Notes under the pieces: model-generated
The model's database searches: none
What the model was told of the DNA's origin: nothing
Seen by the model: the letters and a program-made list of their open reading frames with translations, nothing else
Program-made: the position numbers and the translations under genes
DNA from: Clostridia bacterium
Lineage (GTDB): Bacteria > Bacillota > Clostridia > Christensenellales > Aristaeellaceae
Direction of reading: 5' to 3'
Assembly (NCBI GenBank): GCA_017937655.1
Contig: JAGBDE010000005.1
Location: 1-64,000 of the forward strand
Length of the DNA: 64,000 nt
Part shown: positions 5,155-64,000 of the stretch, in pieces
Numbering within the stretch: position 1 is the first letter of the stretch
Layout: the number at the start of each line of letters is the position of its first letter

Positions 5155-5184
5155 ATTATACATGGGATTTGCTTGTATTGTCAA
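5155..5184 (-). promoter_or_regulatory. Consensus sigma-A promoter of hisS
   Basis: Minus strand TTGACA, 18 nt, TATAAT: a full consensus match in both boxes. The leader then holds a small hairpin at 5130-5147 (TCTGCG, six A, CGCAGA) just before the ribosome site. The leader is far too short for a T-box. Confidence 0.9.
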
Positions 5185-5211
5185 GAAATCCACCCATGAC
5201 GGATGGATTTC
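5185..5211 (-). terminator. Hairpin after the radical SAM gene
   Basis: Arms GAAATCCA and TGGATTTC, extended by TCC/GG pairs, just 16 nt past the radical SAM stop and directly against the hisS -35 box. There is no clear U-run, so termination is uncertain. Confidence 0.45.
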
Positions 5212-5226
5212 CTGTGTTTCTGTTTG

Positions 5227-6102: not shown

Positions 6103-6103
6103 G

Positions 6104-6970: not shown

Positions 6971-6986
6971 GTTGCTTCTCCTTTTC

Positions 6987-7790
6987 TCAGCGGAAGTAGG
7001 CGGTGAGGGCCTCCCAGGTGGCGCCCTTGAGCAGCACCCGCAGGACAATCAGCAGCACCAGGTGCAGCGGATAAATGGCATAGCCCAGCCACTTGGGCAG
7101 CCGGAGCCGGGTATGGGTGGGGATCAAAATCAGCGGCAAAGCCAGCACCGCCAGGGACTGCAGCTTGCACACCGCACGGAGCAGATCGCCGATGCCGGGC
7201 CATTTGAGGAAGCTGAACTCCAGCCCGAAGAACTGGGTCACGCCGCCGCTGCTGGTGCCCCAGAACAGACAGAAGCCAAAGAAGGCCGCAAACAGGCCGG
7301 CCTTGTTGTTCCGGGCCAGGTACAAAAGCAGGATGAAAGTCAGGCCCTTCCAGCCGTAATCCACATGGATGAACCCCAGCAGCAGGTAGCACAGGGCGGG
7401 CACCCAGATCTGGCTGAGGTATTTGCCCCAGCGGATGCCCTGAATGGCCACCGTGGCAATGCACAAAAGAAACAGGATACTGAAATAGTTCCATTCGTGG
7501 TTCAGCGCCATCATGTACAGGGGCTGAGAAACGACGGCGATGAGCAGCAGCCGCAGGCAGTACATCAGCGGGCGGCGGGTCTTGACGTTGCCCACCACCA
7601 GGCACCAGGCGTACAGCGGCATGGCAATGCGCCCCAGCACCCGCATTTCCTGCACGGTGGGGAAAAACAGTACGCCCATGTGGTCAATGAGCATAAACAC
7701 CAGCGCCAGTACCTTCAGAAAGCCTGTGTCCAGGTTTCCTGCCAGCTCCTCGTTGTTCCGGGGAAGGGTTCTTTCCGCAGTGATTTCCAT
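6987..7790 (-). CDS. TraX-family membrane protein
   Basis: A 267-aa polytopic membrane protein with about eight hydrophobic segments. FLKVLALVFMLIDHMG, MRVLGRIAMPLYAW and a C-terminal YAIYPLHL are the conserved signatures of the TraX family, named after an F-plasmid pilin N-acetyltransferase and common in Firmicutes chromosomes. It probably acts as a membrane acyltransferase, but the substrate is unknown. The ATG at 7790 follows GAGG by 5 nt. degV starts 16 nt after its stop, so they form an operon. Confidence 0.88.
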   Translation of the reverse strand: MEITAERTLPRNNEELAGNLDTGFLKVLALVFMLIDHMGVLFFPTVQEMRVLGRIAMPLYAWCLVVGNVKTRRPLMYCLRLLLIAVVSQPLYMMALNHEWNYFSILFLLCIATVAIQGIRWGKYLSQIWVPALCYLLLGFIHVDYGWKGLTFILLLYLARNNKAGLFAAFFGFCLFWGTSSGGVTQFFGLEFSFLKWPGIGDLLRAVCKLQSLAVLALPLILIPTHTRLRLPKWLGYAIYPLHLVLLIVLRVLLKGATWEALTAYFR

Positions 7791-7840
7791 AACGGCCTCA
7801 CAAACAAAAGATTTGCGCCGCAACAGCCTGCGGCAAGGGA

Positions 7841-7849
7841 AGTATATCA
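7841..7849 (-). promoter_or_regulatory. Extended -10 promoter for traX-degV
   Basis: Minus strand TGATATACT (extended -10). No convincing -35 was found. The 13-mer GATGTGATATACT recurs exactly at the promoter of the 50.1-kb acidic-tail gene. Confidence 0.65.
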
Positions 7850-7860
7850 CATCATGGGCA

Positions 7861-7899
7861 AAAAGGAAACGGCGTTTGCCGCTGACGGGCAAACCGTTT
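7861..7899 (-). terminator. Terminator of the Sel1-repeat gene
   Basis: On the minus strand the arms AAACGG-TTTGCC and GGCAAA-CG-CCGTTT form a 12-bp stem with a 2-nt bulge and a 7-nt loop, followed by CCTTTTTG. It lies 17 nt after the Sel1 gene and before the traX promoter. Confidence 0.8.
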
Positions 7900-7916
7900 T
7901 GAGGGATGTTTCAAGA

Positions 7917-8306
7917 TCAAAAAGCAATTCCCAGTTCTTTGCATTTTTCAATTGCCAAATCATGATCCTGCTTTGCCGCAAGGCAATACCAATGCTTAGC
8001 TTGCTCCATATCCCGCTCAACGCCAATGGCATCTTCATAGAACCAGGCCAAATTGCATTGGCCGTCCCGGTCGCCGTGTTCTGCCGCCCGGCGTGTCCAA
8101 TACAGCGCCTTCGACAAATCCTTTTCCACGCCAAGACCCTCCAAATAAAAATACCCCACCTGACATTCCGCAAGGGGATAGCCCCGCTCGGCGAGAAGCA
8201 AATGTCCTTCAAAACACTTGTCATACTGCTTGGATTCCCAATATTTTTCCATCAATTCATTGCAAATATCCAATTCTCTGCACGGCTTGTAATATCCGTT
8301 TTCCAT
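7917..8306 (-). CDS. Sel1-repeat protein
   Basis: A 129-aa soluble protein made of about two to three SEL1-like helical repeats; the best copies read AECQVGYFYLEGLGVEKDLSKALYW in part (AxxxxGxxYxxGxGVxKDxxKAxxW) and QCNLAWFYEDAIGVERDMEQA. Such repeats mediate protein-protein contacts. The ATG at 8306 follows GAGG by 7 nt. No signal peptide is seen. Function unknown; it is transcribed alone, divergently from mrfA. Confidence 0.8.
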   Translation of the reverse strand: MENGYYKPCRELDICNELMEKYWESKQYDKCFEGHLLLAERGYPLAECQVGYFYLEGLGVEKDLSKALYWTRRAAEHGDRDGQCNLAWFYEDAIGVERDMEQAKHWYCLAAKQDHDLAIEKCKELGIAF

Positions 8307-8446: not shown

Positions 8447-10732
8447 ATGAATCTTGACCAGCTGCTCTCGTCTTTGCGCCAGAACAAGTCCTTTATGGAC
8501 TGCGTCACCCATTGGCGCACTTTGCCTGCCACCGATGGCAGCTACGCGGATTTCCCTGCCTCCATGGATCAGCGCATTCAGAAGGTGCTGGAAAAGCGGG
8601 GCATTTTCCGGCTGTATTCCCATCAGGCGGAGGCTTTCCGGCTGGCCGAGGAAAAGAAGGACTTTGTGGTGGTCACCCCTACCGCCAGCGGCAAAACTTT
8701 GTGCTACAACCTTCCTGTGCTCAGCGCCATCCTGAAAAACCCGGACGCCCGGGCACTGTACCTGTTCCCCACCAAGGCCCTCAGCGCCGACCAGGTCAGC
8801 GGCCTGTACGATATGATCACCGCCCTGGACATGGACATCAAGGCCTACACCTACGACGGCGATACCCAGGCCGTGGCCCGCAAAGCCATCCGCCAGACCG
8901 GGCACATCGTGGTCACCAACCCGGACATGCTCCACGCCAATATGCTGCCCCACCACACCAAATGGGTCAAGCTGTTTGAAAACCTGGAGTACATCGTCAT
9001 CGACGAGATCCACACCTATCGGGGCGTGTTCGGCTCCCACCTGGCCAATGTGCTGCGCCGCCTCAAGCGCCTGTGCGATTTTTACGGCAGCCACCCCCGG
9101 TTCATCCTGTGCAGCGCCACCATCCAAAACCCGGTGGAACTGGCCCAGGCCCTCACCGGCCGGGAGATCGCCCCGGTGACCGGCAACGGCGCGCCCATGG
9201 GCGAGAGGCATTTCATCTTTTACAATCCCCCCGTGGTCAACAAACAGCTGGGCATCCGCAAGGGCGCGGTCAATGAGACCCTGTCCGTGGCCAGCATGCT
9301 GCTGCGCAACCATATTCCCACCATCGTGTTTGCCAAAAGCCGGGTGCAGGTAGAGGTGCTCACCCGCCGCATGAAGGACGCCACCAAGGACGCCTACGGC
9401 TTCTCGCCCAGGGTGCGCGGCTATCGGGGCGGCTACCTGCCCAGCGAACGCCGGGACATCGAACGGGGCCTCCGGGCCGGCGAGGTGGACATGGTGGTCT
9501 CCACCAACGCCCTGGAGCTGGGCATTGATATCGGCAGCCTGAACGCCTGCGTACTCTGCGGCTACCCGGGCACCATCGCGTCCACCTGGCAGCAGGCGGG
9601 CCGCGCCGGCCGCCGGAAGGACACTGCCGTCACCATCCTGGTGGCAACGTCGGCCGCCCTGGATCAGTACGTAATCGAGCATCCTGACTACTTTTTCGGC
9701 GCATCCCCCGAAAACGCGCTGGTGGCCCCCAATAACCTGTACATCCTGCTCAGCCATCTGAAGTGCTCCGCCTATGAGCTGCCCTTCCAGGACGGCGAGC
9801 TTTTCGGCGGCGTGGCCGATACCCCGGAATGCCTGGAATACCTGACGGAAAACAACATCCTGCGCCATCTGGACGGCAAGTATTACTGGATGGAGGAGGA
9901 TCTGCCCTCCGGCGAGATCTCCCTGCGCAGCGCCACCAGCGAAAACTTCGTCATCATTGACATCACCAACCCCGCCCATCACCGGGTCATCGGGGAGATG
10001 GACCGCTTTACCGTGCCCATGCTTCTGCACGAGAACGCCATCTACATGCACGAGGCCAAGCAGTATCAGGTGGAAAAGCTGGACTTTGACGCCTGCAAGG
10101 CCTTCATCCGCGCCGTGGACGTGGACTACTACACCGACGCGGACATGAACGTGAGCCTGCACATCCTGGACGATCTGGACAGCCGCGCCACCAAGGGCGG
10201 CGTGGACGTGACCCTGGGCGAGCTGAGGGTCAGCACCATTGTGAAGATCTTCAAGAAAATGAAGCTGGACACCCATGAAAACCTGGGTTTTGGCCAGGTC
10301 ATGCTGCCTCAGACCGACATGCACACCGTGGGCATGTGGTGGACCATCCCGGATTCCCTGGCCGCCCGCTATTCCAACGACGAGCTCCAGGGCGCGCTGG
10401 TGGGCGTGGCCAATCTGCTGGGCATCGTGGCGCCGCTGTACCTAATGTGTTCGCCCCGGGATATCCGAGTCATCTACCAGGTCAAGGCCCCCATCACCGA
10501 TAAACCCACCATTTTCCTCTACGATTCCTTCCCCGGCGGCGTGGGCTTGAGCGAGAAAGCCTTCTCCATGCAGGAACTGCTGTTGGAGCAGGCCTTGCAG
10601 GTGGTTCAGCAATGCGGCTGTGAGGATGGCTGCCCCGGCTGCGTGGGCCCGGTGGTGGAAGTTGGCGGAAATGGCAAAAAGACCACGGAAGCCGTTTTGA
10701 AGGAGCTGTTGGGCCTATGGCAGGACTTCTGA
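8447..10732 (+). CDS. mrfA: MrfA-type DEAD/DEAH-box repair helicase
   Basis: A 761-aa superfamily 2 helicase matching the MrfA (YprA) architecture. Motif I is TASGKT at about 79-84, motif II is DEIH at 186-189, motif III is SAT at 223-225, motif VI is QQAGRAGRR. A DUF1998-type C-terminus follows, with DSFPGGVGLSEKAF and a four-cysteine site C723, C725, C729, C732 (CGCEDGCPGC). In Bacillus subtilis MrfA and the exonuclease MrfB form a nucleotide-excision pathway for mitomycin C damage that is independent of UvrABC. The next gene has MrfB architecture and overlaps by 16 nt, which supports this assignment. GAGG lies 7 nt before the ATG. Confidence 0.93.
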   Translation: MNLDQLLSSLRQNKSFMDCVTHWRTLPATDGSYADFPASMDQRIQKVLEKRGIFRLYSHQAEAFRLAEEKKDFVVVTPTASGKTLCYNLPVLSAILKNPDARALYLFPTKALSADQVSGLYDMITALDMDIKAYTYDGDTQAVARKAIRQTGHIVVTNPDMLHANMLPHHTKWVKLFENLEYIVIDEIHTYRGVFGSHLANVLRRLKRLCDFYGSHPRFILCSATIQNPVELAQALTGREIAPVTGNGAPMGERHFIFYNPPVVNKQLGIRKGAVNETLSVASMLLRNHIPTIVFAKSRVQVEVLTRRMKDATKDAYGFSPRVRGYRGGYLPSERRDIERGLRAGEVDMVVSTNALELGIDIGSLNACVLCGYPGTIASTWQQAGRAGRRKDTAVTILVATSAALDQYVIEHPDYFFGASPENALVAPNNLYILLSHLKCSAYELPFQDGELFGGVADTPECLEYLTENNILRHLDGKYYWMEEDLPSGEISLRSATSENFVIIDITNPAHHRVIGEMDRFTVPMLLHENAIYMHEAKQYQVEKLDFDACKAFIRAVDVDYYTDADMNVSLHILDDLDSRATKGGVDVTLGELRVSTIVKIFKKMKLDTHENLGFGQVMLPQTDMHTVGMWWTIPDSLAARYSNDELQGALVGVANLLGIVAPLYLMCSPRDIRVIYQVKAPITDKPTIFLYDSFPGGVGLSEKAFSMQELLLEQALQVVQQCGCEDGCPGCVGPVVEVGGNGKKTTEAVLKELLGLWQDF

Positions 10733-11880
10733 ACAAGCTCCGAATGATGGACGCTGCCCCGGCCAGGCCGGCCCCTGCCGCAAGGCCCCAGGAGCAGCGC
10801 AAGGTCTACCGCAATGAAACGTTTTTTCCCGTGTCCCTGTTTTCAGACATGGACTGCCTCAGCCCGGAGCTGCTCACCCAGATTTTTGGCGGCGACTTTC
10901 CGGACAAGGTCAGCCCGGAGGACATCCTGTTCTTTGACACGGAAACCACCGGTCTGTCCGGCGGCGTGGGCACGGTGGCCTTCCAGCTGGGGCTGGGGTA
11001 TTTTACCCCGGCGGGCTTTGTGGTGGAACAGCTTCTCATGCACGACTACCCGGAAGAGCCGGAAATGCTCCGTATCCTGGAAGCCCGGTTCAAGCGGTAT
11101 CCCCTTTTGTGCACCTTCAACGGCAAAACCTTTGACGTGCCGCTGATCCGCACCCGGTTCCTCATGAACCGCATGCCGGAAAGCTCCATCCCCGCTTGCC
11201 ATGCCGACGTGCTCTACCCCGCCCGGCGCATCTGGAAGCTGCGGCTCAAGCAGTGCAATCTGGGCAACCTGGAAGAGCAACTTCTGGGCGTGCAGCGGGA
11301 AAACGATCTGCCCGGCTACCTGGTGCCCCAAACCTATTTCCAATATCTGAAGGACGGCAATTTCGAGCCCCTGAACGGCATTCTGGAACACAACCGGCAG
11401 GACATCGTGTCCCTGGCGCAGCTGTTTTTCTTCCTATGTAAACAGGTCAGCCAGCCGGAGAAGATCGCTGAGAAGGAGGACCTTCTCTCCCTGGCCCGGG
11501 CCATGGAAAAGCAGGGGCAGAAGCAGAAGGCCGTCCGCTGTTACCGGCTGTGCACCGGCAGCCCCATGCAGGGCGAGGCCTTCCGGGCCCTGTCCGTCAT
11601 GGAAAAGCGGGACGGAAACTATCAGGCGGCGGTGAAGCTGTTGGAAAACATGCTTCGTCAGGGGGACGACCCCATCTACGCCTGTGAGGCCCTGGCCAAG
11701 CTGTATGAGCATCAGCTCAGGGACGTCGACCGGGCGCTGAGCTACACCCGCCAGGCGCTGCTGATGCTGTCCGAGCCCACTCTCCGGAAAGATGAAGCTG
11801 TACAAGAAACAAAAAATGCGTTACAATACCGTTATGCCCGCCTGCGCCGCAAATTAAGCCGCAGCGCGGAAACCCCGTAA
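10717..11880 (+). CDS. mrfB: MrfB-type DEDDh exonuclease with TPR tail
   Basis: A 387-aa protein. The N-terminal half is an RNase H-like 3'-5' exonuclease: Exo I is FFDTETTGL (Asp and Glu ligands), Exo II is TFNGKTFDVPLI, and Exo III is HNRQDIVSLA (His and Asp). The C-terminal third (about residues 250-360) is TPR-like. This matches B. subtilis MrfB (YprB), the metal-dependent exonuclease partner of MrfA in mitomycin repair. It overlaps mrfA by 16 nt, indicating coupled translation. Confidence 0.92.
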   Translation: MAGLLNKLRMMDAAPARPAPAARPQEQRKVYRNETFFPVSLFSDMDCLSPELLTQIFGGDFPDKVSPEDILFFDTETTGLSGGVGTVAFQLGLGYFTPAGFVVEQLLMHDYPEEPEMLRILEARFKRYPLLCTFNGKTFDVPLIRTRFLMNRMPESSIPACHADVLYPARRIWKLRLKQCNLGNLEEQLLGVQRENDLPGYLVPQTYFQYLKDGNFEPLNGILEHNRQDIVSLAQLFFFLCKQVSQPEKIAEKEDLLSLARAMEKQGQKQKAVRCYRLCTGSPMQGEAFRALSVMEKRDGNYQAAVKLLENMLRQGDDPIYACEALAKLYEHQLRDVDRALSYTRQALLMLSEPTLRKDEAVQETKNALQYRYARLRRKLSRSAETP

Positions 11881-51243: not shown

Positions 51244-52074
51244 TCAGACGTCGCCCTCGTCCTTGCGCTTGCGGTAACGGACCATCAGGACGATGAGCAG
51301 CACCAGCAGAATGGGCGCGGCGATGGCGGGGGTGACGATGATGGGGTCGATCTGCATCATATCGGGCGGGACGAAAATGACGGGCTTTTCCTTGATGTTT
51401 TCGATGCGCTTGCCGCGGACCAGCAGGCGGTGGGTGTTGATGCCGTAGGGGGTGCAGGTGACCAAGGTGCAGTAATCGCGCTTGGGCACGGGCAGCAGCG
51501 CGTCCACCTCGGTGGGTTCCACAATGAGGACTTGATCCACCTCATACGTCAGCAGGCGATCCAGCACGGTAATGGTAAAGATATCGCCAATTTTCAGTTC
51601 ATCCAGGTCGGTGAAGAGGATAGCGCTGGGCAAGCCGCGGTGGGCGCTGAGGACGATATGGTTACCCGCACCGCCGATGGGCAGCGCAGACCCCTCCAGA
51701 TGGCCCACGGCCACGTTCAGCACGGCTTCGCTGGTACCATGGTAGATGGGCAGCTCCACCTTGATTTTGTCGATGTCGATATATCCCATGATGCCGGTGC
51801 CGGTCACGTCCAGGGTTTCCCAGTAGCCCTCCACGCGAGAGGGATCGTAGAAGGTCATGTAGTCTTCCAGCAGCAGGGCGTTGTAGTCCTCCGCGGCCTC
51901 AAAGAAGGCGCTGTAGTCCTTAGCTTCCATGTTGGCCAAGGCGCTGTCATAGCTGGCAATGGCGCGGGACTGGTTTTTGGAGTTGACGTAATCACTGATG
52001 GCGGGGTATAGCAAAATACACAGGCCCACCAAAAAAACGGCCACCAGGATGATGCTGGAAAGGTGTTTCTTCAT
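51244..52074 (-). CDS. Class C (pilin-polymerising) sortase
   Basis: A 276-aa sortase that links pilins through their LPXTG-type signals. N-terminal signal anchor (about 6-24), lid-like FYDPSRVEG segment (about 75-83), catalytic H145 (SAHRGLPS), C207 (TLVTCTPYG) and R216 (THRLLVRG), and a C-terminal membrane helix (about 243-263) ending RYRKRK; the second helix is typical of class C. GGGAG 6 nt before the ATG at 52074 defines the start. It follows the major pilin gene. Confidence 0.94.
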   Translation of the reverse strand: MKKHLSSIILVAVFLVGLCILLYPAISDYVNSKNQSRAIASYDSALANMEAKDYSAFFEAAEDYNALLLEDYMTFYDPSRVEGYWETLDVTGTGIMGYIDIDKIKVELPIYHGTSEAVLNVAVGHLEGSALPIGGAGNHIVLSAHRGLPSAILFTDLDELKIGDIFTITVLDRLLTYEVDQVLIVEPTEVDALLPVPKRDYCTLVTCTPYGINTHRLLVRGKRIENIKEKPVIFVPPDMMQIDPIIVTPAIAAPILLVLLIVLMVRYRKRKDEGDV

Positions 52075-52161
52075 AGTACACTCCCAAGGGTGAAAAGTGA
52101 GGGGGGTAGGCAATGGATGAGGTTGCGGGTTTGCAGCCCCATGCGCTGCCTGCCATGGGAA

Positions 52162-52228: not shown

Positions 52229-53653
52229 TTACTCGTTCACGGTGCGCTTCTTGGCAACCAGCAGAACCACGGCAGCAGCCATCATCAGGCCACCCACCAG
52301 GTAGAAGATGGTGGTACCGATGCCGCCGGTAGAGGGCAGGGTGGTACCAGCGTTGTTTTCCACATCTTTTTCGATCACACCATCAGCATTAACGGTGGTC
52401 TCAGCGCTAGAAGTATCCAGTACGACCTTGTTCTCGGGGTTTTGGGTGGTTTCATACTTAATTTCGAAAGTAACGTTGGTGGTCAGCTTGTTGTAACCCT
52501 TAGGAGCTTCTACCTCGATCAAAGTATAGACACCGTCCTTCAGGCCCTTTACACCAAAGTTACCCTGATCATCAGATTCCAGAATGGAAGCAGCGGTTTC
52601 GTCAGAAGTCCAACCAGTGAGCTTCAGAGTATCCTCGTCAATCACAGCGTACTCGGAGCCGCGCATCAGCTTGAACTTGGCACCAGCAAGAGCGGCTTTG
52701 GAATCACCGTCAAACTTATCGCCGTCAAGTTCGAAGGTGAACACAACAGCAGAAACAGGATTGGTAGTACCAAAGTCATCCTCTTCGGGACCATTGGTGA
52801 AGTCAAGAGTAAACTCGTTGACGTTACCAGTCTGACCGATGGTGGCGTTTTCGTTCAGAATAGCGGTGTATTCAACCTTGATCACGGTTCCAGCAGTGAT
52901 GCCAGTAACTTCGGTCAGGTCTTCAACTTTCAGTTCGAAGCCATTACCCTTGGTAGTAGCGGCAATGTCTTTCAGAGCAGCGGGTTCGGTAATCTTTGCA
53001 TTACCATTGTAAGTGAGACCGTCATCCATGGTATCCTTGAAGATCATGGTATAAACATCATAGTTATCAAAGCCGGTGGGCACGGTTGCGGTCAGATAGA
53101 ACTTGACTTCATCGCCGTAGTCGTAGGCGGAAACGTTCACATCTTCTTCGTCTTCGTCGATCTTCTTGTCGGTGTCGGGAACATCAGAACGCTTTTTGGC
53201 AATGGTCAGGTCCTGGTTGTAAACGTTCAGAATGTATGCAGACTTGGTATCAGCATTTTCGGTAACATCAACAATCAGGTAGTAGCCGGACACAACATCA
53301 TCGGGAAGATCAATCTCAGTTCCTTCCTTAACGCAATCAGCAAGTCTGGTAGCAATTTCGACGGGGGTCATGTCCTTAATAGCGCCAATAGCTTCAACTG
53401 CATCAGTAGCAGTGAAGGTTTCAGCGTCAGGAGCAAGCCAAGCCTTCAGTTTAGTCTCATCTGCGGCAGAACCGAATTTAGCATTGGCGAACACGTTGCC
53501 ATCAGTGGCGCCGGCGATGTAGTCACCAGTGAAGATCTGATAGGCAACATATTTGTTGGTGTCATCCACATTCAGGGTGGCAGCCATAGCGGGCATGGCC
53601 AGAGCCAGAACCAGAACCAGAGCCAGGAGAACGGAGATAATTCTCTTAGTCAT
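52229..53653 (-). CDS. LPXTG major pilin (isopeptide-forming fimbrial protein)
   Basis: A 474-aa exported protein. Sec signal peptide (residues 1-24, AMPAMAA), pilin domains with an early TLNVDDTNKYVAYQIFTGDY strand, a middle immunoglobulin-like part, and a Cna-B-like domain (about 315-410) with an E-box YTLIEVEAPKGYN. The sorting signal is LPSTGG at 439-444, then a membrane helix and KKRTVNE. A canonical YPK pilin motif is not seen; VYNQDLTIAKK at about 143-153 may serve instead. An AAGGAAG ribosome site supports the start. Confidence 0.93.
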   Translation of the reverse strand: MTKRIISVLLALVLVLALAMPAMAATLNVDDTNKYVAYQIFTGDYIAGATDGNVFANAKFGSAADETKLKAWLAPDAETFTATDAVEAIGAIKDMTPVEIATRLADCVKEGTEIDLPDDVVSGYYLIVDVTENADTKSAYILNVYNQDLTIAKKRSDVPDTDKKIDEDEEDVNVSAYDYGDEVKFYLTATVPTGFDNYDVYTMIFKDTMDDGLTYNGNAKITEPAALKDIAATTKGNGFELKVEDLTEVTGITAGTVIKVEYTAILNENATIGQTGNVNEFTLDFTNGPEEDDFGTTNPVSAVVFTFELDGDKFDGDSKAALAGAKFKLMRGSEYAVIDEDTLKLTGWTSDETAASILESDDQGNFGVKGLKDGVYTLIEVEAPKGYNKLTTNVTFEIKYETTQNPENKVVLDTSSAETTVNADGVIEKDVENNAGTTLPSTGGIGTTIFYLVGGLMMAAAVVLLVAKKRTVNE

Positions 53654-53736: not shown

Positions 53737-56700
53737 TCACTCATACCTCCTTTCACGCTTGCGCCTCGTTACGTACCAGTACAACAGGGTTGCTGCCATC
53801 AGCAGCAGGCCGCCTGCTGTGTACAGGAGGGTACCGGCACCGCCGGTGGACGGGAGTTCCGCATTCTGCGTGGTTTCGTTGTAGAAGCCGGGACGGGTGC
53901 CGCTGGTAATGGCCAGTCCGTCTTCGCCAACTGCGGTCTCATACTCGTAAAGAGCAGTGCCCAGGTCTTTAATGTTGATAAAATCGCCAACCTTGATCTG
54001 TCCCTCAAGCGGGTTGCGATAGTAGTACGCCTTCGCGGACAGGTTGCCGTCGTTTCTGCTGACAACCACCTTCACAACGTAGCTATCCTCAGCGGTGAAG
54101 TAGCGCTCTTTGTAGTCAGCTCTGTCGCCATTGTAGTTGGTCGGCTCTTCATACGCCACGTAGTAGTGGGTGCCAATTCCCTCGTACTTGATCTTGTCAA
54201 ACGTGATCAGGTGGCCACTATTCTGGGTGACGGGCACAACCTCGGTGTTGGACACTTTATAAGTACCGTCGGCTTGTTCATCAAGCTTCTTCAAGTGGAA
54301 GTCGAACTTGGAATTGCCGCTGTACAGCAGGCCATTCATGTACTTATAGAAGTGAAGGTTGATCTCGGTTTCGCTGGGCTTGTCAACACGAGTGGTGTTA
54401 TGGAACACGTTGTTGCCAGTGGTGGTACGGGTCAGCAGGGATTCGTCCACGGTACCGTTGACGATGATGTTGCTGCCGTCATTGGCATTGCAGGTGTTCA
54501 CGGGAGTGAGTTTGAGGGATTGCTGAGCGCCGTTGACATCCTTGTAGGTGATGTACGCACTGGTTACCTTAATCGGTCCACCCGAATTAAGCTTGAGATC
54601 AACTTTCTGAGAACCAGGAGTAAGATCGTTGGTGAGCCAGATAATTTTCTGGTCATTGTAATTCACAGGATAATCGTTCGCGTATGTGCTATTACCGATG
54701 GTTACATCGAAGGATCCTGTGTTGTAGTTCTCGTTGGCAATACCAGTGTTAATCGTCAACTGGAATCCGCCGTCACCCTTGTTCCAATCAGTTTGTTCAG
54801 GCACTGTGAAGCTGGCAGTCATGCTATCACCGGCGTTGTACGTACCTGCCAGACCAGCGGTCATGTTTACGCCATCCTGGCTGCTGGGCTGCTGGAAGGT
54901 GGTAACGTTGGTAACCAGCTGACCGTTGCTGCGCAGGGTTTCAACCTTGAACACATACGCCTCGCCGGAGTAGATGTAGTTACCATCGCCGACCTTCTCC
55001 ACCACGCGGAACCAGCGGGGAGTGCCGATGTCGCTTGCCTTGAAGGTGAGGGGGTGAGCCTCATTTTCTGCGTCACCGACGAAGATCACGTTACCGTCAT
55101 TGTCGTTGGTGGTGTTAGGAATGCCGGCATTCACCCACTTTTCGCCTTCCAGCGTCTGCAGTTCAAACTGGAAGTCGCCTGCACCGTTAACGTAGAGACG
55201 GTTGTTGACATGCTTGAGCATCTTGAGCTGAGCAGCAACGGGGTCGGGTTCCTCCACATAGGTAATCTTCGTGTTGGTGAAGGTACGATGGTTGTTGTCA
55301 GTAGCGGCAACAAGCGCATCGGGAATGGCCTTACCGTCCTTATCGAAGATGGTGGTGTAGATGGTGTGAGTGCCATCGGGGGTGACGGTGGTATCGGTGG
55401 AACCATCAGGATGGTCTGCAAACTGTGCTTCTACGAAATCAGCTCCGCTCGAAGGCTGATACTTCATTCCAGCAAACGTCAACTTAGTTCCTTCGACGTT
55501 GAAATTCTCCATTACAAGTTTGAAACGATGCCAATTGTTATCGGCGCTCTTGAAGAATGCTTGGTTTGCTGCCAGGTTGTTATCGATTTCCATTGCGCTA
55601 GTTTGACCCACGTTATTAAAGTGCATGTCTACCGAATTACCTGAATCATCATAGATGTACAAACGAGCCGTTGCACTATTCTTTCCTTCCCCAGAAATGC
55701 TGGAGAAGTAGATGATGATTTTTGCATTGTTGGCGTTGTTTGGATCAATAGGCTCAGGAAGCTTAATGAAACCTTCGCCCTCCTTGACAGCATCAACGTC
55801 ATTGCCGCTGATGTACTGCTTCTGCAGATTCACAGAAGTCTGACCGGAAACAACGATGTTACCAACACCATGCTCGTCTGTTTCAACTTTGAAGGACTCT
55901 TCCGTTACGTCGAAGCTTTCCGAAACGATAACACGAACGAAATAGTTGGTGGTATCCAGCACGTAGCCGGTGTTGCTGGTCTGGGTTTCAACAACCTTGT
56001 ACCAGTATTCGCCGGGGGTGTCGTAGCGGATGGGGGCGAAATAGATGGGGTACTTGTAGACGTTGTCGTGTTCCTTATCATTTTCGCCGGTCTTTTCGTT
56101 GGTGGCCGTCTGGATCAGATTCCAATCAAGATCTTCCGTACGTTCGTAGAGTTCGAACTGGAACTGCTTGGGAGCTTCGCCTTCGTCTACGCCTTCAATG
56201 CGCTTGTAGAACTTCAGCTGGACTTCAGCGGCGTCGTTTCCGAAGTTGAAGGTCTTGTTGTTGAAGTCATGATAATGGAAATCAAGTTCCAGGCCTGCGG
56301 GGTACTTCAGGGGTTCGTCCTCGTTGTACACGTAGTTTTCCAGCGCCTGCGGGTTGACCATGTAGCCGCCTTTGCCGTCAGGAATGACCAGCGGCAGCAG
56401 GTTGGGCCGGATGGTGGGTTCGGGAGTGGGTTCCTCACCGCTGGGTTCATCCGGCTCTTCCGGAGCAGGGGGTTCCGTGGTGCCGCCGGACCAAGAACTC
56501 GCAGTAAAGTATTGGGATTCATTAGTATTACCACCAGTATGAGTTTGGTACAACTGAACCTTATCGATTGTGAGCGTCTTATCTCCTGTATAGTTGATGG
56601 TTACTGTTGCGGTTCCGTCTTTGAATCCTTTATTGGGTTTATAGCCGCCTTGATCATTAATTCTGCAAACAGCTACATAGTCGTCGGCTGCAGTGTAGCC

Positions 56701-59700
56701 GCCAATAAGAGTTGCACCAACATTTTCGTCCGAAAGAACGGCTGAACAATTGATAGCATCGCTATTCGTGATTTTTTCAGTAAAACCAATATATACATAC
56801 CACTCATAGGTTCGTTCAGTTTCAGGAAGGCCCGTAAAATAGAACGTCACGGGGGAAGAACTATCAATAATGGCAGACGAGGACGATGTAACCATTTGAT
56901 AGGTCGCAACAGCGGCTTCCTGCTCTTCTTCGGCGCTGATGCCGTACACAGCCTCATTGTTCACCTTGTAGAAGGTGGTGGTGCTGCGATAAATCCGCTT
57001 GCCATCAAGGGTGTAGTAGAAGCCATCCGCACCAACGGGATAATTTGCGTTGTCGTTCACGATGCCGGCAGGTACGTCAGAATCGCCCTGCTTGTAGTAA
57101 GCGCCATCTTTTTTGGTAGCAGGGTCGCTGATCTCCACCTTCATGATGTACTCGCTTGTATCCAGCACGGTACTAACAATGGGAGTCTGATCCTCACGAA
57201 TACGGAACCAGTAAGTGCCGGGCTTGTCGAAGGTCAGGTCGCTGAACTTCACGTAGCCGTAGTCATTTTGATCTTTTACCTGGCTGTTCTTGGTAGTCTG
57301 GATCTGAGTCCAGTTGCTGCCAATCAGCTGTTCCATAATGAAGGTGTACTTGTCAGTCTGGTCAGCATTATTAATGGGATTGCCACCAAACTGCTTGTAG
57401 TAGGCGCCCGGATCAACCAGTGCGATGGCGGCAACATCCTGCAGCTCGTTATGGAAGATGTGGTCACCGTTGGTGGACATGGAGCTGGTATCAACCTCGG
57501 TGCCATTGGCCTTGTAGCTGGGCTCAGGAATCTGGCGATTGTTATTGTTGTCCGTGCCAATGGCGTTGCTGTGCAGGAAGTATTCGCTGCTGGCAGAGAG
57601 GTTGTAGTCCTCGTCCATGGTCACTTCCACACGGATATAGTACACATCCTTGGAATTGACCAGGTTCTTGCCGTTGAAGTTGTAGGCTTCTTCGGATTCG
57701 GTCACTGCGCCGTTGCTGACGGTGTGCTTCTTTGCAGCAGTGCCATCTTCGTACACGCGGTACCAGTGCACGCCGATGTCGGTCTCGAAGGCGTAATCCA
57801 GTTCAAAGTGGATCAGGTCTTCGGTGGAGGTGTACTGGTTGTTGGTGTTGCGGGTGCTGTCAACTTTCTCCCATCCGCTGGAAATGCCGGTTGGCGTTTC
57901 CTGATGAGTAAGCTTTTCCAGAACGAAGTTGAATGCCGGGAAGGTACCGTCTTCAGCAGCGCCTTTTACGGGCTGGCCATCCAGGTTCTTGTACAGGTCG
58001 ATGCCCATATTCACCGGGATGGGGTCACGGTTCTTCTCGTTGTTGTTGAACACCATGCCGCTGCCGTCGCCCAGGTAGGTGGCAACAGTTTCATCAATGA
58101 TGTAGCCGATGAGCACGGGGGCTTCTTCATCGGTTTCATCGTATTCCGGCACGAAGGGCACGTCGATCAGCTTGCCATCATAGGTGGCGCCGCTGGCAAC
58201 GTAGTAATCCGTCGCAACGATGCTGGTACCATAGATGTAGTTGTCTTCCACCATAACGCGGATGAAATACTGGTTGGTGCTGTACTCGTAGGTCTTGTCG
58301 AGTTCCTCCTGAGACTGCTGCTCGTATGCACGATACCAGTAAGTGGTAGTTACTGTGGGAGTTTCTGCGTTTTCGTTCTTGTGGGGATATTCAATGGTCT
58401 TGGTACCAAACTTGCTGGTAGCAAGGTTTTCGGACACGTTGGTAAGGGTTTCGATGGGCTTGCCTTCCCAGTTGCCTTCCTCATGGAATACGAGTTCCTC
58501 AAATTCAAACGAGAACTTCTGGTTACCGTCGGCCGGGTTACCGTTCACAGTCTTCTGGAAATTGAAGCTGATGCTGGCTTTAGCGGGAACGGGAGTGGGC
58601 GTAGGCGTAGATTCCGGGGTGGAACTAGGAGTAGGAGCGTCAGGATTGGTGGGCGTGGGGGCAGGAGTAGGCGTGACGTTGGGGACGTAGATATTGTTGA
58701 AAATCAAGTCCTTTGCGCCGATAGGCTTTCCAAGCTTCGTAAAGTCGATGTTACTGTTATTGTCCTCAAGGCGGTAGAAAGAGGACTTTACTTCCACCTG
58801 ATACATCTGACAGAACATACCCGGGATTGGCTTGAGCTTAACAAAGTCCTTCACCAGATACTGCACCTTGCTGATTTCGTACATAGAACCAGCGGGCAGA
58901 TTGGGCTGCTCAGTTGCTTCATAAACGCGATACCAGTAGGTTTCTCCTTTGGTAGAAGCGTTGGCATCAGTGTAAGTAATGTCGCTGAAGTGGAATTCAC
59001 CGCCATAGTTGACAGCTCTGCCAACTTCTTTCCACTCGTTGGTTTCAGGATTCCATTTTTCCTTGATGAAAACGAAGTTCTCGGTTGCCTTGGGCACGCC
59101 GCCGTTAACCTGCTTCTTGAAGCCGTCCTTGATGGTAGAGGGACGGGTGGTACCGGTGAAGTCAGTACGGTGAGACTCCGCCTTGACGTTGATGACATCA
59201 GCAATAACGGTACCATTGATGTTGGACTTAATATTGACCGTTGCGCCGGGAGCAATAATAGAACCAACCATGGTATCGGTGTTGATAGTAACGCCTTCTG
59301 CATGGGTAAAGTTCCAAATCACTTTACCGTTGGAGAATTCGCCGGTTTCGCTGGCGGCAGTCTGCTTGCCGTCGATGTAAAGCATGGTGGGGGGCAGATT
59401 GATGGTTTTGCCCTCCATCAAAGAGCAATCTACATTGATAATCAAGCTGCCGTTATGACCTTTTTTGAAGCCGGTCAGTTCAAGACGACGTTCGATGCCG
59501 TTGATGGTATCAGGTTTCATTTCAACATAAGCAGCACCGTCAATCTTGTTGACGTTAATGGTGGGGTTCATATAGAAACCACCGTTGGGGCTGGTGTACC
59601 AATAGCCGTTCTGTGCGACCGCAACATCAGCACCCATGGCTCTGGTTCCAGGCGTAGACGTGCTTGGGGATCCCCAGTAGTTATAGGTAATAATTTTGTC

Positions 59701-62700
59701 CCAATCAAGGCCGTCAATCTGGTTATACAAGTTGTCGCTAATGCTGCGGATTTGGTTTTCAACCCATTCCAGATCGATGAAAGGACGGTTGTTGCTATCG
59801 CGGTCCTTAATAATTTTGTTGGGACGCTCCATCTTTACATTGTTGATAGACAGGGCAGTACCATTATCTTTCAGGCCGATGGTGTGACCGCTGCCCACAA
59901 CCAAAACATGATTGGCCTTGGCGCCGCTTCCGCCGTTGATTTCCTTATAATTGAGAATGTAGGAAAGCTCATCGGCCAACTGGTTGGTACCAAAGTTGCT
60001 CTGTGCTACACAGTTCAAAGCAAGAATGTTACCATTACAGTGCGCAAGGACGTTGGCCGTGTCAAAAGCAACCAGATGGAAGCTTCCGGCAATGCCAAGA
60101 GGACTGGTATGAACAATGTACTTGGAATATTCGGAGTTGTTAACAAAGGCATTGTATTCGTCGTTGTACTCGAATGTTTTGCCGCGATAGGTACCGGGGT
60201 CGATATCGCCAGCCAGGTTGACGGATACATAGTAGGTAGAGAAACTATCAGTAGAGAACTCAACGGTCTGGACGGTGCCGTCATCGTGAATGAGGGCGTT
60301 GTTTTCCAGCAGCTCAGGAGTATTTTCATCAACCATGTGAACCACGTTGATGTCAAACTCTTCGGGCAGCAGATCCTGAGAATTCAGGACATCTTCGGCC
60401 AGATGGAAGCGAACGATGATTTCGCCGCCTTCAGGCTCCACTTCCACGCCATTGAGCATGAAGCAGATGTCATAGACCAGATCTTCCACGGACTTTTTGC
60501 CGGTAACGGTCTTGGCCTGATCAACGGTATCGGAATAAAGCTGGCTATTCTTATCCACGGGGGTGACAACCAGTTCGGAGCCGAAGGGCAAAGTGACTCC
60601 TTCGGGAATCTCGATAGTGATATAAACGTAGTAATCCTGATATACGTAACGAGTGGGCTGGGGCTTGGTGCAGACATCAGAGTGAAGATGCTCTTCCAGC
60701 TGGCAGATCAGCGTTCCGAACTCGTCGTAGCATTCTTCGGCATGGAGATGTTCTTCCATGGCGCAGTACAGCACCACTTCAACCAGGCACTCTTCAGTAT
60801 GGGCATGTTCAGCCACTTCGCAGATGAGGTTGCCCTCAGCGTCGAAGCAGGTTTCGATATGGGCATGCTCTTCCAGACCGCAGTAGTAAGTGGGCTCGAC
60901 CACAGGCTCTTCGGTCACTTCGGGAGCGACGGTGCACTCTTCAGTATGGGCATGTTCAGCCACTTCGCAGATGAGGTTTCCCTCAGCGTCGAAGCAGGTT
61001 TCAATATGAGCATGCTCTTCCAGGCCGCAGTAGTAAGTGGGTTCGACCACAGGCTCTTCGGTCACTTCGGGAGCGACGGTGCACTCTTCGATATGGGCAT
61101 GTTCAGCCACTTCACAGATGAGGTTGCCCTCAGCGTCGAAGCAGGTTTCCACATGGGCATGCTCTTCCAGACCGCAGTAGTAAGTGGGTTCGACCACAGG
61201 CTCTTCGGTCTCAACAGGTGCAACTGTGCACTCTTCGGTGTGAGTGTGTTCTGCAACCTCGCAGATTACGTTGCCTTCTTCGTCGATGCAAGCCTCAACA
61301 TGAGCGTGCTCTTCCAGACCGCAGTAGTACGTGGGTTCAACCACAGGCTCTTCGGTCTCAACAGGTGCAACTGTGCACTCTTCGGTGTGAGTGTGTTCTG
61401 CAACCTCGCAGATTACGTTGCCTTCTGCGTCGATGCAAGCCTCAACATGAGCGTGCTCTTCCAGACCGCAGTAGTACGTGGGCTCGACCACAGGCTCTTC
61501 GGTCTCGGCGGGTTCTTCGGTTGCCACGGGTTCTTCAGTCTCGACGACTTCCTCGGTAGCCACAGGTTCTTCGGTCTCGACGACTTCTTCGGTAACCACA
61601 GGTTCTTCGGTCTCGATGACTTCTTCAGTGGTCTCGGGAGCAACCAGGCACTCTTCGGTATGAACGTGCTCGGTCACTTCACAAATCACGTTGCCTACTT
61701 CGTCAATGCACTCGTCGCCATGAACGTGCTCAGAAACTTCACACATATAATAGGAAGTTTCTCCTTCAGGAGTGACGGTGGATTCGACGGGTTCTTCAGT
61801 AGAGGTGGCCTCCAACATGGCTTCATAAGCCATGTTGATCAGACCGTAGCCAACAATGGTGGGATCGTTCAGTTTGTATTCATGCTTACCGACTTCGGCA
61901 TCATGATTACCCTCGATGGTGATCACCTTGGATCCGCTTACATCATATACAATACCGACATGATTTGCCTTTCCATCTCCATCCCAATCGAAGAAAACCA
62001 AATCGCCAGAGGAAGGAATAAAGTCTCCGCCGGCCTTCGCAAACAGACCAATGGACGCATAGTCACGCCGCATACGGGTCGCATTGGATTCCTGCGGGAA
62101 TACATCCTCAGGCAGCTCAGCGTTGTCCATACAGAAGGATACGAACATAGCGCACCAATCGCTGTAAGGCAGATGCCACCAGTCGCCATAGCGAGTGTAC
62201 CCATAGAAGCCATCGCTTTCAATCACGAAATTATCCTGAGACTCAGCATAACCCATCTGTGTTTCAGCAATCATCAGCAGATCTTTGGGCCATTCGCCTG
62301 TGAGTTCCAGGCCCTTGAAAGCACTGCGCCATTCGGCAGGAGTCTCAACCAAAGTACCGGAGCAACGCAAGGTAGCAGAAGTTTCAGCAGTAACGCCGTT
62401 GGCGTCGACAGCCTTAACATTCACGGTGATGGTGCTCTTCTTTTCCCAAGACTGAACGGCAACGGTAAAAGTGTTCTGCTCGTAATCGGTCAGGGAGAGG
62501 ATTTCCGTTTCATCCTGCAGCACGCTAACCTGATACTTCACAGGAGCGGTGCCACCGGACTGGCTAATGTGATAGATGGGACTATTGGCGGGAGAGGCAT
62601 ACAGTGCATCGGTGGTAAGGCCCAGCACCATGTTTCCGTCGCTCACAGCCAAAGAAGCAGTATCAGAAACGTTATAGGCTCCATCAGAGACGGTGAAGGT

Positions 62701-63543
62701 GATGTGATAAACGCCGGGAATAGAGGTAGTCCAGCTGAGAGAAGTGGTGGTAGGATCCAGACTGGTTTCAGGTACAACAACCGCACCGTTCGTTACGTCG
62801 GTTACATTGTAGGACAGCGTTACTGCTCCGGTAGTATTCAACTGCCAGGTTGCAGTTTCGTTGACCACAATGCCAAGATCCTTCTCGCTGGTGATGGTAA
62901 CAGTCAGCGGCACAGGAGTCTCGGTCTCCGCGGGAGCCTCGGTGATAACGACTTCCTCGGTTGCTTCCGGTTCCTCGGTAACAGGTACTTCGGTCACAGG
63001 TACCTCGGTAACAGGTACTTCGGTTACAGGTACCTCAGTCACAGGTACTTCAGTCACAGGAACCTCGGTAACAGGTACTTCGGTTACAGGTACTTCGGTT
63101 ACAGGTACTTCAGTCACAGGAACCTCGGTAACAGGTACTTCGGTTACAGGTACTTCAGTCACAGGAACCTCGGTAACAGGTACTTCGGTAGGTGCAAGGG
63201 TTTCCTCGATCACCTGGGCATAGCATTCACCGCCATGAGTATGGGCTTCCTTGCCACACACCATAGCACGGGAATAACACGCCTCAGCATGAACATGTTC
63301 CTCCGATTCCTGGAGTTCGCAAATCTGATGAACCGCATAGCAGTTCTCAGAATGAGAGTGTTCTTCAAGAACACAGATCAATTCGGAAGACATGGTAATA
63401 GCAGGCTGCATCAACTGCAATGCAACCACGCTAACAACCAGTACCGACAGCACGCTCAGAACAGCGATAGCTTTACGGCGCTTTGCTTTGTTAGTAAAGC
63501 AGTCCTGAATGTAAGAAGAAATTTTCCAATGCACACCGTTCAC
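53737..63543 (-). CDS. Giant LPXTG tip adhesin with Cys/His repeats
   Basis: A 3268-aa surface protein, probably the pilus tip. In order: signal anchor (about 25-46); three Cys/His motifs (about 57-108); 14 EVPVT repeats (about 118-188); beta domains; a CHAP-type domain (about 410-575; C464 in YSDWCAMF, H528 in ANHVGIVYD); 14 more Cys/His motifs in seven units (about 597-960) on Glu/Thr/Val linkers; a beta domain; a choice-of-anchor-A-like domain (about 1120-1460); seven pilin isopeptide domains starting near 1473, 1652, 1845, 2043, 2438, 2770 and 3062 (Lys in FQKTVNG, LYKNLDG, YYKQFGG, FYKRIEG, FYKYMNG), with a Pro/Thr linker near 1620. Sorting signal LPSTGG at 3230, membrane helix, RRKRERRYE. 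GTG start at 63543; another GTG three codons later is possible. Confidence 0.95.
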   Translation of the reverse strand: MNGVHWKISSYIQDCFTNKAKRRKAIAVLSVLSVLVVSVVALQLMQPAITMSSELICVLEEHSHSENCYAVHQICELQESEEHVHAEACYSRAMVCGKEAHTHGGECYAQVIEETLAPTEVPVTEVPVTEVPVTEVPVTEVPVTEVPVTEVPVTEVPVTEVPVTEVPVTEVPVTEVPVTEVPVTEVPVTEEPEATEEVVITEAPAETETPVPLTVTITSEKDLGIVVNETATWQLNTTGAVTLSYNVTDVTNGAVVVPETSLDPTTTSLSWTTSIPGVYHITFTVSDGAYNVSDTASLAVSDGNMVLGLTTDALYASPANSPIYHISQSGGTAPVKYQVSVLQDETEILSLTDYEQNTFTVAVQSWEKKSTITVNVKAVDANGVTAETSATLRCSGTLVETPAEWRSAFKGLELTGEWPKDLLMIAETQMGYAESQDNFVIESDGFYGYTRYGDWWHLPYSDWCAMFVSFCMDNAELPEDVFPQESNATRMRRDYASIGLFAKAGGDFIPSSGDLVFFDWDGDGKANHVGIVYDVSGSKVITIEGNHDAEVGKHEYKLNDPTIVGYGLINMAYEAMLEATSTEEPVESTVTPEGETSYYMCEVSEHVHGDECIDEVGNVICEVTEHVHTEECLVAPETTEEVIETEEPVVTEEVVETEEPVATEEVVETEEPVATEEPAETEEPVVEPTYYCGLEEHAHVEACIDAEGNVICEVAEHTHTEECTVAPVETEEPVVEPTYYCGLEEHAHVEACIDEEGNVICEVAEHTHTEECTVAPVETEEPVVEPTYYCGLEEHAHVETCFDAEGNLICEVAEHAHIEECTVAPEVTEEPVVEPTYYCGLEEHAHIETCFDAEGNLICEVAEHAHTEECTVAPEVTEEPVVEPTYYCGLEEHAHIETCFDAEGNLICEVAEHAHTEECLVEVVLYCAMEEHLHAEECYDEFGTLICQLEEHLHSDVCTKPQPTRYVYQDYYVYITIEIPEGVTLPFGSELVVTPVDKNSQLYSDTVDQAKTVTGKKSVEDLVYDICFMLNGVEVEPEGGEIIVRFHLAEDVLNSQDLLPEEFDINVVHMVDENTPELLENNALIHDDGTVQTVEFSTDSFSTYYVSVNLAGDIDPGTYRGKTFEYNDEYNAFVNNSEYSKYIVHTSPLGIAGSFHLVAFDTANVLAHCNGNILALNCVAQSNFGTNQLADELSYILNYKEINGGSGAKANHVLVVGSGHTIGLKDNGTALSINNVKMERPNKIIKDRDSNNRPFIDLEWVENQIRSISDNLYNQIDGLDWDKIITYNYWGSPSTSTPGTRAMGADVAVAQNGYWYTSPNGGFYMNPTINVNKIDGAAYVEMKPDTINGIERRLELTGFKKGHNGSLIINVDCSLMEGKTINLPPTMLYIDGKQTAASETGEFSNGKVIWNFTHAEGVTINTDTMVGSIIAPGATVNIKSNINGTVIADVINVKAESHRTDFTGTTRPSTIKDGFKKQVNGGVPKATENFVFIKEKWNPETNEWKEVGRAVNYGGEFHFSDITYTDANASTKGETYWYRVYEATEQPNLPAGSMYEISKVQYLVKDFVKLKPIPGMFCQMYQVEVKSSFYRLEDNNSNIDFTKLGKPIGAKDLIFNNIYVPNVTPTPAPTPTNPDAPTPSSTPESTPTPTPVPAKASISFNFQKTVNGNPADGNQKFSFEFEELVFHEEGNWEGKPIETLTNVSENLATSKFGTKTIEYPHKNENAETPTVTTTYWYRAYEQQSQEELDKTYEYSTNQYFIRVMVEDNYIYGTSIVATDYYVASGATYDGKLIDVPFVPEYDETDEEAPVLIGYIIDETVATYLGDGSGMVFNNNEKNRDPIPVNMGIDLYKNLDGQPVKGAAEDGTFPAFNFVLEKLTHQETPTGISSGWEKVDSTRNTNNQYTSTEDLIHFELDYAFETDIGVHWYRVYEDGTAAKKHTVSNGAVTESEEAYNFNGKNLVNSKDVYYIRVEVTMDEDYNLSASSEYFLHSNAIGTDNNNNRQIPEPSYKANGTEVDTSSMSTNGDHIFHNELQDVAAIALVDPGAYYKQFGGNPINNADQTDKYTFIMEQLIGSNWTQIQTTKNSQVKDQNDYGYVKFSDLTFDKPGTYWFRIREDQTPIVSTVLDTSEYIMKVEISDPATKKDGAYYKQGDSDVPAGIVNDNANYPVGADGFYYTLDGKRIYRSTTTFYKVNNEAVYGISAEEEQEAAVATYQMVTSSSSAIIDSSSPVTFYFTGLPETERTYEWYVYIGFTEKITNSDAINCSAVLSDENVGATLIGGYTAADDYVAVCRINDQGGYKPNKGFKDGTATVTINYTGDKTLTIDKVQLYQTHTGGNTNESQYFTASSWSGGTTEPPAPEEPDEPSGEEPTPEPTIRPNLLPLVIPDGKGGYMVNPQALENYVYNEDEPLKYPAGLELDFHYHDFNNKTFNFGNDAAEVQLKFYKRIEGVDEGEAPKQFQFELYERTEDLDWNLIQTATNEKTGENDKEHDNVYKYPIYFAPIRYDTPGEYWYKVVETQTSNTGYVLDTTNYFVRVIVSESFDVTEESFKVETDEHGVGNIVVSGQTSVNLQKQYISGNDVDAVKEGEGFIKLPEPIDPNNANNAKIIIYFSSISGEGKNSATARLYIYDDSGNSVDMHFNNVGQTSAMEIDNNLAANQAFFKSADNNWHRFKLVMENFNVEGTKLTFAGMKYQPSSGADFVEAQFADHPDGSTDTTVTPDGTHTIYTTIFDKDGKAIPDALVAATDNNHRTFTNTKITYVEEPDPVAAQLKMLKHVNNRLYVNGAGDFQFELQTLEGEKWVNAGIPNTTNDNDGNVIFVGDAENEAHPLTFKASDIGTPRWFRVVEKVGDGNYIYSGEAYVFKVETLRSNGQLVTNVTTFQQPSSQDGVNMTAGLAGTYNAGDSMTASFTVPEQTDWNKGDGGFQLTINTGIANENYNTGSFDVTIGNSTYANDYPVNYNDQKIIWLTNDLTPGSQKVDLKLNSGGPIKVTSAYITYKDVNGAQQSLKLTPVNTCNANDGSNIIVNGTVDESLLTRTTTGNNVFHNTTRVDKPSETEINLHFYKYMNGLLYSGNSKFDFHLKKLDEQADGTYKVSNTEVVPVTQNSGHLITFDKIKYEGIGTHYYVAYEEPTNYNGDRADYKERYFTAEDSYVVKVVVSRNDGNLSAKAYYYRNPLEGQIKVGDFINIKDLGTALYEYETAVGEDGLAITSGTRPGFYNETTQNAELPSTGGAGTLLYTAGGLLLMAATLLYWYVTRRKRERRYE
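60745..61479 (-). repeat. Five 147-bp tandem coding repeats (49 aa)
   Basis: Units begin at 61479, 61332, 61185, 61038 and 60891 (minus strand), exactly 147 bp apart; the last diverges after about 110 bp. Each encodes TYYCGLEEHAH, EGNxICEVAEHxH and an acidic TEEPVVEP linker. The copies differ at few positions, indicating recent duplication. Confidence 0.95.
62981..63190 (-). repeat. Fourteen 15-bp coding repeats (EVPVT)
   Basis: Plus-strand unit ACAGGTACTTCGGTC with wobble-type variants, 14 copies in frame. A 45-bp super-unit of three variants recurs at 63041-63085 and 63101-63145. The protein product is a Pro/Thr/Val/Glu spacer. Confidence 0.97.
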
Positions 63544-63587
63544 CTTACCTTTGCTGGATATAGAACAAACGAAGAAGTGAAATATAC

Positions 63588-64000
63588 TTAGTCGACAAGT
63601 CCGGCATCGCGGAAGGGCCAGACTTTGAAGATAACATGGCCAACAATTTCATCTGCAGCGACGCAGCCAATCAAACTGCTTCGGCTATCAACAGATTCTG
63701 CTCTGTGGTCTCCCAGAACGAAGACGCCGTTATCGGGCACCTGATAAGGATACTCAATATCGCTGATACCAAGGCTTTTTTCGATAACATAAGGCTCGTC
63801 GAGGAGGGTTCCGTTTACGGTTACATTGCCGTCCTCGTCAATTTCCACCCAGTCGCCTTGAGTCGCGATAACGCGTTTCAGGAGGAGCTTGTTATTGAAG
63901 TAAAAACCTACCACTTGGCCTTGTTGAAAATTGGTCGTTTTTACTGCAATAACGATGTCGCCATCATTCATGTTAGGTTCCATACTGGTTCCAGTAATTT
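63588..64000 (-). CDS. lepB: Signal peptidase I (C-terminal part, cut by window edge)
   Basis: About 137 visible residues of a type I signal peptidase. The catalytic Ser is in GTSMEPNM at the very edge, the Lys base in LLLKRVIA, and box E is GDHRAESVDSR. The N-terminal membrane anchor lies beyond position 64000. It is 44 nt upstream of the giant adhesin gene on the same strand, as is usual for pilus clusters with a dedicated peptidase. Confidence 0.92.
   Translation of the reverse strand, partial: ITGTSMEPNMNDGDIVIAVKTTNFQQGQVVGFYFNNKLLLKRVIATQGDWVEIDEDGNVTVNGTLLDEPYVIEKSLGISDIEYPYQVPDNGVFVLGDHRAESVDSRSSLIGCVAADEIVGHVIFKVWPFRDAGLVD

Follow-up and report, generated by a model that had tools for sequence, protein, structure and literature searches.

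Two described systems come closest to the locus reported here, one in its gene order and the other in the repeats of its largest protein. In the srtF cluster of Streptococcus suis, as set out in the portion of the published account that we draw on, sipF, an ancillary pilin gene, a backbone pilin gene and a class C sortase gene are adjacent, and polymerization persisted after the deletion of sipF (PMC2797073), so that a pilus may not depend on a signal peptidase of its own. The protein PhtD, according to the excerpted part of its report, consists of repeated three-strand units with a zinc site in which three His and one Glu are the ligands (PMC3842936).

The window analyzed in this work is a 64,000-nucleotide stretch from a member of the Clostridia, and the minus strand of this genome carries, in order, genes for a coiled-coil protein, a signal peptidase I, a protein with an array of Cys/His motifs, a pilin and a class C sortase. 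The gene set and order signal peptidase, large LPXTG protein, pilin and class C sortase are identical to those of the S. suis cluster as far as the excerpted text describes it, and the signal peptidases of the present loci resemble SipF (PMC2797073) in that the catalytic Ser and Lys are retained in 56 of the 56 aligned sequences. However, many relatives of the locus have an extra coiled-coil gene before the signal peptidase gene, and the large pilin bears a Cys/His array that matches no family searched; in both respects they differ from srtF as described in that text. The array protein is also comparable to PhtD in being a surface protein of short repeats for each of which a zinc site has been proposed or shown, whereas PhtD is built of HxxHxH units and, in the part of the report referred to above, is encoded with adcAII (PMC3842936), and the array motif supplies two Cys and two His. 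The HxxHxH pattern has no occurrence in the window protein and 2 occurrences in 82 array proteins. We regard the chances as evenly balanced that an undescribed zinc-stapled beta-ribbon of the form C-x(4,7)-H-x-H-x3-C caps the tip pilins of sortase pili among Bacillota, gut Clostridia included, in company with a specialized signal peptide that delivers it, a signal peptidase of its own and a partner of the coiled-coil type.

Gene Content of the Locus

The features by which a sortase-pilus operon is recognized were found at the locus (Table 1), viz. a class C sortase gene beside pilin genes, a shaft pilin of the isopeptide type with an LPXTG anchor, and a large ancillary LPXTG protein. The shaft-type pilin is also matched by TIGR04226 (64.3 bits, cut-off 30) and, above its cut-off, by PF00746, and it scores 83.4 bits against NF033902 (SpaH/EbpB), which is below the cut-off of 95. 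The signal peptidase I gene is located 44 bases upstream of the array gene. A stand-alone display module comprising the coil, the signal peptidase and the array protein was also considered and was dropped, because a pilin and a class C sortase sit downstream; for the same reason the locus is read as a pilus operon. The array protein had been labeled an adhesin in a reading of the sequence alone, and the operon, the anchor and the domains make this label more specific: the likeliest identity of the protein is that of tip pilin in a pilus assembled by sortase, its tip position being suggested by the gene order and by general knowledge of such pili.

Table 1. Features of the pilus locus and of the array protein (window positions unless marked as contig positions).
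Feature	Position	Strand	Evidence
Coiled-coil protein	contig 64232-64741	-	precedes signal peptidase
Signal peptidase I	63588..64000, continues to contig 64184	-	PF10502; TIGR02227 116.5 bits, cut-off 47
Array protein, probable tip pilin	53737..63543	-	ORF, motif scan, Pfam and NCBIfam profiles
Basic stretch and hydrophobic signal segment ending LMQPAITM, residues 1-50	63394..63543	-	sequence; pattern kept in relatives
Three N-terminal motifs, residues 57-107, x7 in the second	63223..63375	-	pattern; AlphaFold2 pLDDT 94.1
TEVPV repeat stretch, limits approximate	62974..63198	-	sequence
CHAP domain, residues 462-546, between both arrays	61906..62160	-	PF05257 36.1 bits, cut-off 26
Seven motif pairs (14 motifs), residues 601-958	60670..61743	-	pattern; AlphaFold2 last four motifs pLDDT 76.9
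Choice-of-anchor A domain, residues 1204-1464	59152..59934	-	TIGR04215 53.9 bits, cut-off 29
Best of several FctA (Spy0128-like isopeptide) domains, residues 2444-2543	55915..56214	-	PF12892
LPSTG cell-wall anchor, residues 3223-3264	53752..53877	-	PF00746; tail sequence
Shaft-type pilin, 474 aa, isopeptide-type domain, LPSTG anchor	52229..53653	-	PF16569 59.1 bits, cut-off 30.5
Class C sortase	51244..52113	-	PF04203; NF033745 254.8 bits, cut-off 160

The Array Protein and Its Predicted Fold

The array protein (3268 aa, GTG start) contains 17 motifs spanning 60670-63375, of which 16 are C-x4-HxH-x3-C and one is C-x7-HxH-x3-C. This pattern scan recovers the count of 17 copies in one surface protein that had been claimed earlier, together with their division into three N-terminal copies, one of them with the x7 spacing, and 14 copies in seven pairs. 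In 2,000 shuffles of the protein the strict motifs numbered 0.0005 on average and 1 at most, against 16 in the real sequence. Of the 46 Cys residues in the protein, 34 are motif ligands, as are 34 of the 80 His residues. The steps from pair to pair among the seven internal pairs are 91, 49, 49, 49, 49, and 39 residues; the 49 aa unit proposed earlier thus holds as a period in four of the six steps but not in the first and the last. Five stretches of the protein are matched by PF12892 (FctA) at E <= 1. Antisense to the gene there is a 2231-codon open frame (56896-63591, plus strand), which probably arises as a side effect of repetition and codon usage.

An AlphaFold2 prediction for residues 51-112, made with 61 aligned stretches, had a mean pLDDT of 94.1 (86.9-94.1 over the five models) and a pTM of 0.54. 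In this model strands are located at positions 2-5, 19-23, 40-44, and 58-61 of the stretch, with the motif loops between them and a three-residue helical turn closing at the last Cys of each motif. The prediction for the last four internal motifs (pLDDT 76.9, pTM 0.34) has the same turns and fewer strands. The motif loops are thus predicted to join short beta-strands in strand-loop-strand units.

Distribution of the Array and Family Searches

One scan of a genome collection, which used the 267-residue array as query, was seeded by short peptide patterns and yields a sample, has identified at least 78 array loci in other Bacillota. Their titles name Oscillospiraceae, Lachnospiraceae, other Clostridia, a few Erysipelotrichaceae-type organisms and two entries of "uncultured bacterium," and animal guts are named in many of them. 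The recurrence of the motif in surface proteins of Bacillota bears out a statement, given with the sequence-only reading, that other Firmicutes surface proteins have it. The array is sparse in genome samples, being found in 5 of 398 genomes of the phylum, 5 of 147 of the class and 10 of 60 near relatives (the own genome included each time), and searches of the phage and plasmid collections gave no matches to it.

A total of 675 motifs are present in a set of 82 proteins, consisting of 81 plus-strand ORFs with at least two motifs and the window protein; the set includes a few short or chance ORFs (e.g. a 98-residue frame in locus L040) and some near-identical pairs. The spacing from C to HxH is x4 in 328 motifs, x7 in 291 and of other lengths in 56, and the commonest gap from motif to motif is 8 residues. 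The loop from the first Cys to HxH is variable in length and HxH-x3-C is almost constant, column counts from the pattern being no test of conservation because the pattern already demands the ligands.

The domains recognized in 28 full array proteins are mainly SpaA (16), DUF7601 (7), Cna_B (6), and CHAP (5). The last of these is an amidase/peptidase-type domain, and one protein of 332 residues (locus L067) consists of an array and a CHAP domain. None of the Pfam and NCBIfam profiles covers the arrays of the window protein. When 61 array stretches were compared with Pfam, the best matches were Kazal_2 (7 members, E 3.7e-5) and PCYCGC (6 members, E 1.4e-4), both weak and limited to a minority of the stretches. 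A search of the PDB by sequence produced no match (two chance rows at E 1.3), and a search by fold with Foldseek produced nothing below E 8 (best E 8.2). The motif array is covered by no family in the libraries searched, viz. Pfam, NCBIfam, and PDB.

Neighboring Genes in Related Loci

A signal peptidase gene is found directly upstream of the array gene in 49 of the 73 loci that have a 5'-closed array ORF and at least 700 bases of upstream sequence; it does not adjoin in the other 24, of which 5 have one elsewhere. By a distance rule, a coil gene lies directly upstream of the peptidase gene in 45 of 55 cases; the coil model behind this count was itself derived from 22 of the proteins at these loci. 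The window coil protein matches a model of 22 others weakly (E 2e-4), and comparison of the coil proteins with Pfam and NCBIfam gave no convincing family coverage. Coil proteins of relatives share the text KELRKLSRxELLE and GSIAEAALxLNGVFEAAQ (L115:1236-1781, minus strand), of which the window copy has a part only.

The downstream side was surveyed in 64 loci with a 3'-closed array ORF, 51 of which have at least 2.5 kb of readable sequence. Among these 51 loci a class C-type sortase is present in 38, a pilin-like ORF in 28 and both in 27, 13 have no sortase downstream, and a class C-type sortase occurs anywhere in 65 of the 78 loci, counts that may include other sortase classes because they were scored by similarity to the window's own genes. 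Of the 60 relatives, 8 have both the array and the signal peptidase, 2 have the array alone and 2 (3 with the weaker hit G562) the peptidase alone; the coil gene is present in 9. The co-occurrence of array and peptidase has a P of 7.4e-7 under a stricter cut that was set after the hits were seen, or 2.6e-6 with the weaker hit counted, values that overstate independence because the 60 relatives and the 78 loci are mutually related.

Some loci depart from the common arrangement. In the peptidase-only cases, L144 stops at a contig edge, and L145 encodes an LPXTG protein (1494-6605, plus strand) that has the same PAIT signal, no array and only 2 Cys residues, in an operon with a coil and a signal peptidase; the array is therefore not essential to such pili. 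L146 and L147 have an array without the module in view, and in L146 the ten motifs are scattered through a 1711-residue protein (2865-7997, plus strand) that has no Pfam match and is neither an array nor a pilus-module neighbor. In L143, a relative of the same genus as the window genome, a second ORF (10722-11408, minus strand) is a fusion in which a copy of the signal and the first motif of the array protein is joined to the rear of the signal peptidase; it lies next to the intact pair and looks like a recombination product. In L150 (3164-4615, minus strand), which is of the same genus, the signal peptidase and array frames are both interrupted, as if the module were decaying jointly.

Conservation of the Motif Residues

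The ortholog of the array protein from the same genus (L143) likewise has 17 motif copies. With the ligands defined from the window protein alone, 8 of the 68 ligands fall in gaps, and the 60 that align are all conserved, with silent codon changes at 18 of them. The corresponding identities are 78 of 123 for non-ligand residues of the motifs and 27 of 58 for Cys and His residues outside them.

Degenerate copies near the arrays were also compared. No copy was found, at spacing x4 or x7, that has kept both Cys and lost exactly one His. Two Cys without HxH occur in four rows: the one in L039 may be real, in L004 the HxH is displaced by one residue, and those in L040 and L043 seem unrelated. The last Cys is missing from its standard place in 18 copies; it is displaced by 1-2 residues in 14 of them (by eye), and two of the remaining four (both in L013) have a Cys beyond an inserted linker. 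No Cys is found within 8 residues before HxH in 36 copies, some of which, among the 30 listed, have a Cys further upstream. Another 14 copies have HxH with neither Cys at x4, and these are mostly x7 copies with a displaced Cys, three being N-terminal text. These comparisons indicate that the four motif residues behave as one site.

Metal Site or Disulfide

A metal site of two Cys and two His is of the tight, structural type. Earlier, the motif had been read as either such a site or a disulfide with an exposed HxH. To the conservation described above can be added a search for disulfide enzymes, limited to VKOR, DsbB and Thioredoxin_4 (PF01323 DSBA being outside the search set), in 42 carrier genomes, viz. 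the own genome (94% complete) and those of 41 of the 78 loci (for which no completeness figure is given), and in 14 control genomes. VKOR and DsbB were found in 0 of the 42 carriers, with 3 and 6 of the 14 controls positive, respectively; Thioredoxin_4 (DsbA-like) was found at E <= 0.001 in 2 of the 42 carriers, 1 of them above the cut-off, with 9 of the 14 controls positive. Because the ligands are kept as a set and the disulfide enzymes searched for are nearly absent, the former half of the earlier alternative is favored, if indirectly, viz. a Cys2His2 metal site, and the ligand set makes zinc the most likely metal.

That the Cys pair instead closes each loop by a disulfide, leaving HxH exposed for some other use, we consider unlikely. 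The protein is exported, a motif rarely retains one Cys without the other, the copy in L039 seems to hold two Cys without HxH, and oxidation can take place without an enzyme; however, a disulfide accounts poorly for His residues that are conserved equally with the Cys and are not lost singly at the standard spacing, and the three enzymes searched for are absent or almost so from the carriers.

Somewhat more doubtful is a role of the array in metal capture, in which it would scavenge zinc at the surface and hand it to an importer, as has been proposed for pneumococcal PhtD. Many candidate sites are present on a single surface protein, and PhtD provides, in the part of its report that we draw on, a published example of a surface protein with repeated zinc units (PMC3842936). 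However, the neighbors of the array gene are pilus genes, the ligands are of the tight kind that suits structure, and no ZnuA-type gene is linked to the array: the sole match in the own genome, to which this search was confined, is on contig C23 and the array on contig C52, so that capture and hand-over gain no support. Stiffening of a stalk and a response to redox, put forward earlier beside metal capture, are likewise candidate roles.

Signal Segment and N-Terminal Position

Export was checked in a set of 69 array proteins with at least 3 motifs and at least 300 residues. All 66 proteins whose 5' end is closed have a strong hydrophobic stretch ahead of the first motif; among the 58 whose 3' end is closed, 42 carry an LPxTG-like site and a hydrophobic tail. 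The distance from the hydrophobic core to the first Cys is 5-20 residues in 76 of 78 proteins, and 43 of 79 have a PAIT-like tetrad ahead of the first motif, which in 29 of the 79 stands exactly ten residues before the first Cys. The conserved signal text, from 20 hand-picked rows, comprises a basic stretch, often a W, and then VVVFxTTYALILPAIT. YSIRK is a specialized signal peptide, and signals of that type are similar in being conserved-sequence signal peptides of LPXTG proteins; the text in the array proteins differs from it, and YSIRK is absent from the window protein.

The nearly fixed core-to-Cys distance and the signal peptidase adjoining the array gene would suit an aid to export or processing, in which the first motifs fold on leaving the membrane, block back-sliding and make the cleavage site accessible to the dedicated signal peptidase, but we hold this to be very improbable as the explanation of the array, 14 of the 17 copies being at least 494 residues further on, L145 having the same type of signal, a signal peptidase and a coil without an array, and some array proteins (L029, L039, and L043) having ordinary-looking signals.

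Proposed Role and Significance

The account that we favor, and judge slightly more probable than not, is that of a tip (ancillary) pilin with zinc-knot loops that have a structural role. The signal peptide would be cut off, probably by the adjoining signal peptidase I, and the mature N-terminus would start a few residues ahead of the first motif, which would place the array outermost on the fiber. Each C-x4(7)-HxH-x3-C loop would hold one metal ion, most likely Zn2+, through its two Cys and two His, and each loop is predicted to close a turn between two short beta-strands, so that the row of loops would form a metal-stapled beta-ribbon that has no need of disulfides. The main role of the array would then be structural, i.e. 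to stabilize the tip and to act as a spacer for the CHAP and adhesive domains under the reducing, protease-rich conditions of the gut.

The sortase-pilus machine is of a known kind, and for its probable tip domain no described family was found in the libraries searched. Pilus tips make the first contact with surfaces. If the zinc-held cap is real, a tip domain common to many little-studied gut bacteria is missing from the libraries searched, and the stabilizing is done by metal rather than by a covalent bond, the zinc-stapled ribbon then being a metal-based counterpart of the isopeptide bonds of the pilus shaft. Such pilus tips would also be sensitive to zinc supply and to the metal-withholding proteins of the host. 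The order coil, signal peptidase, array protein provides a marker, readable from sequence, for further pilus tips.
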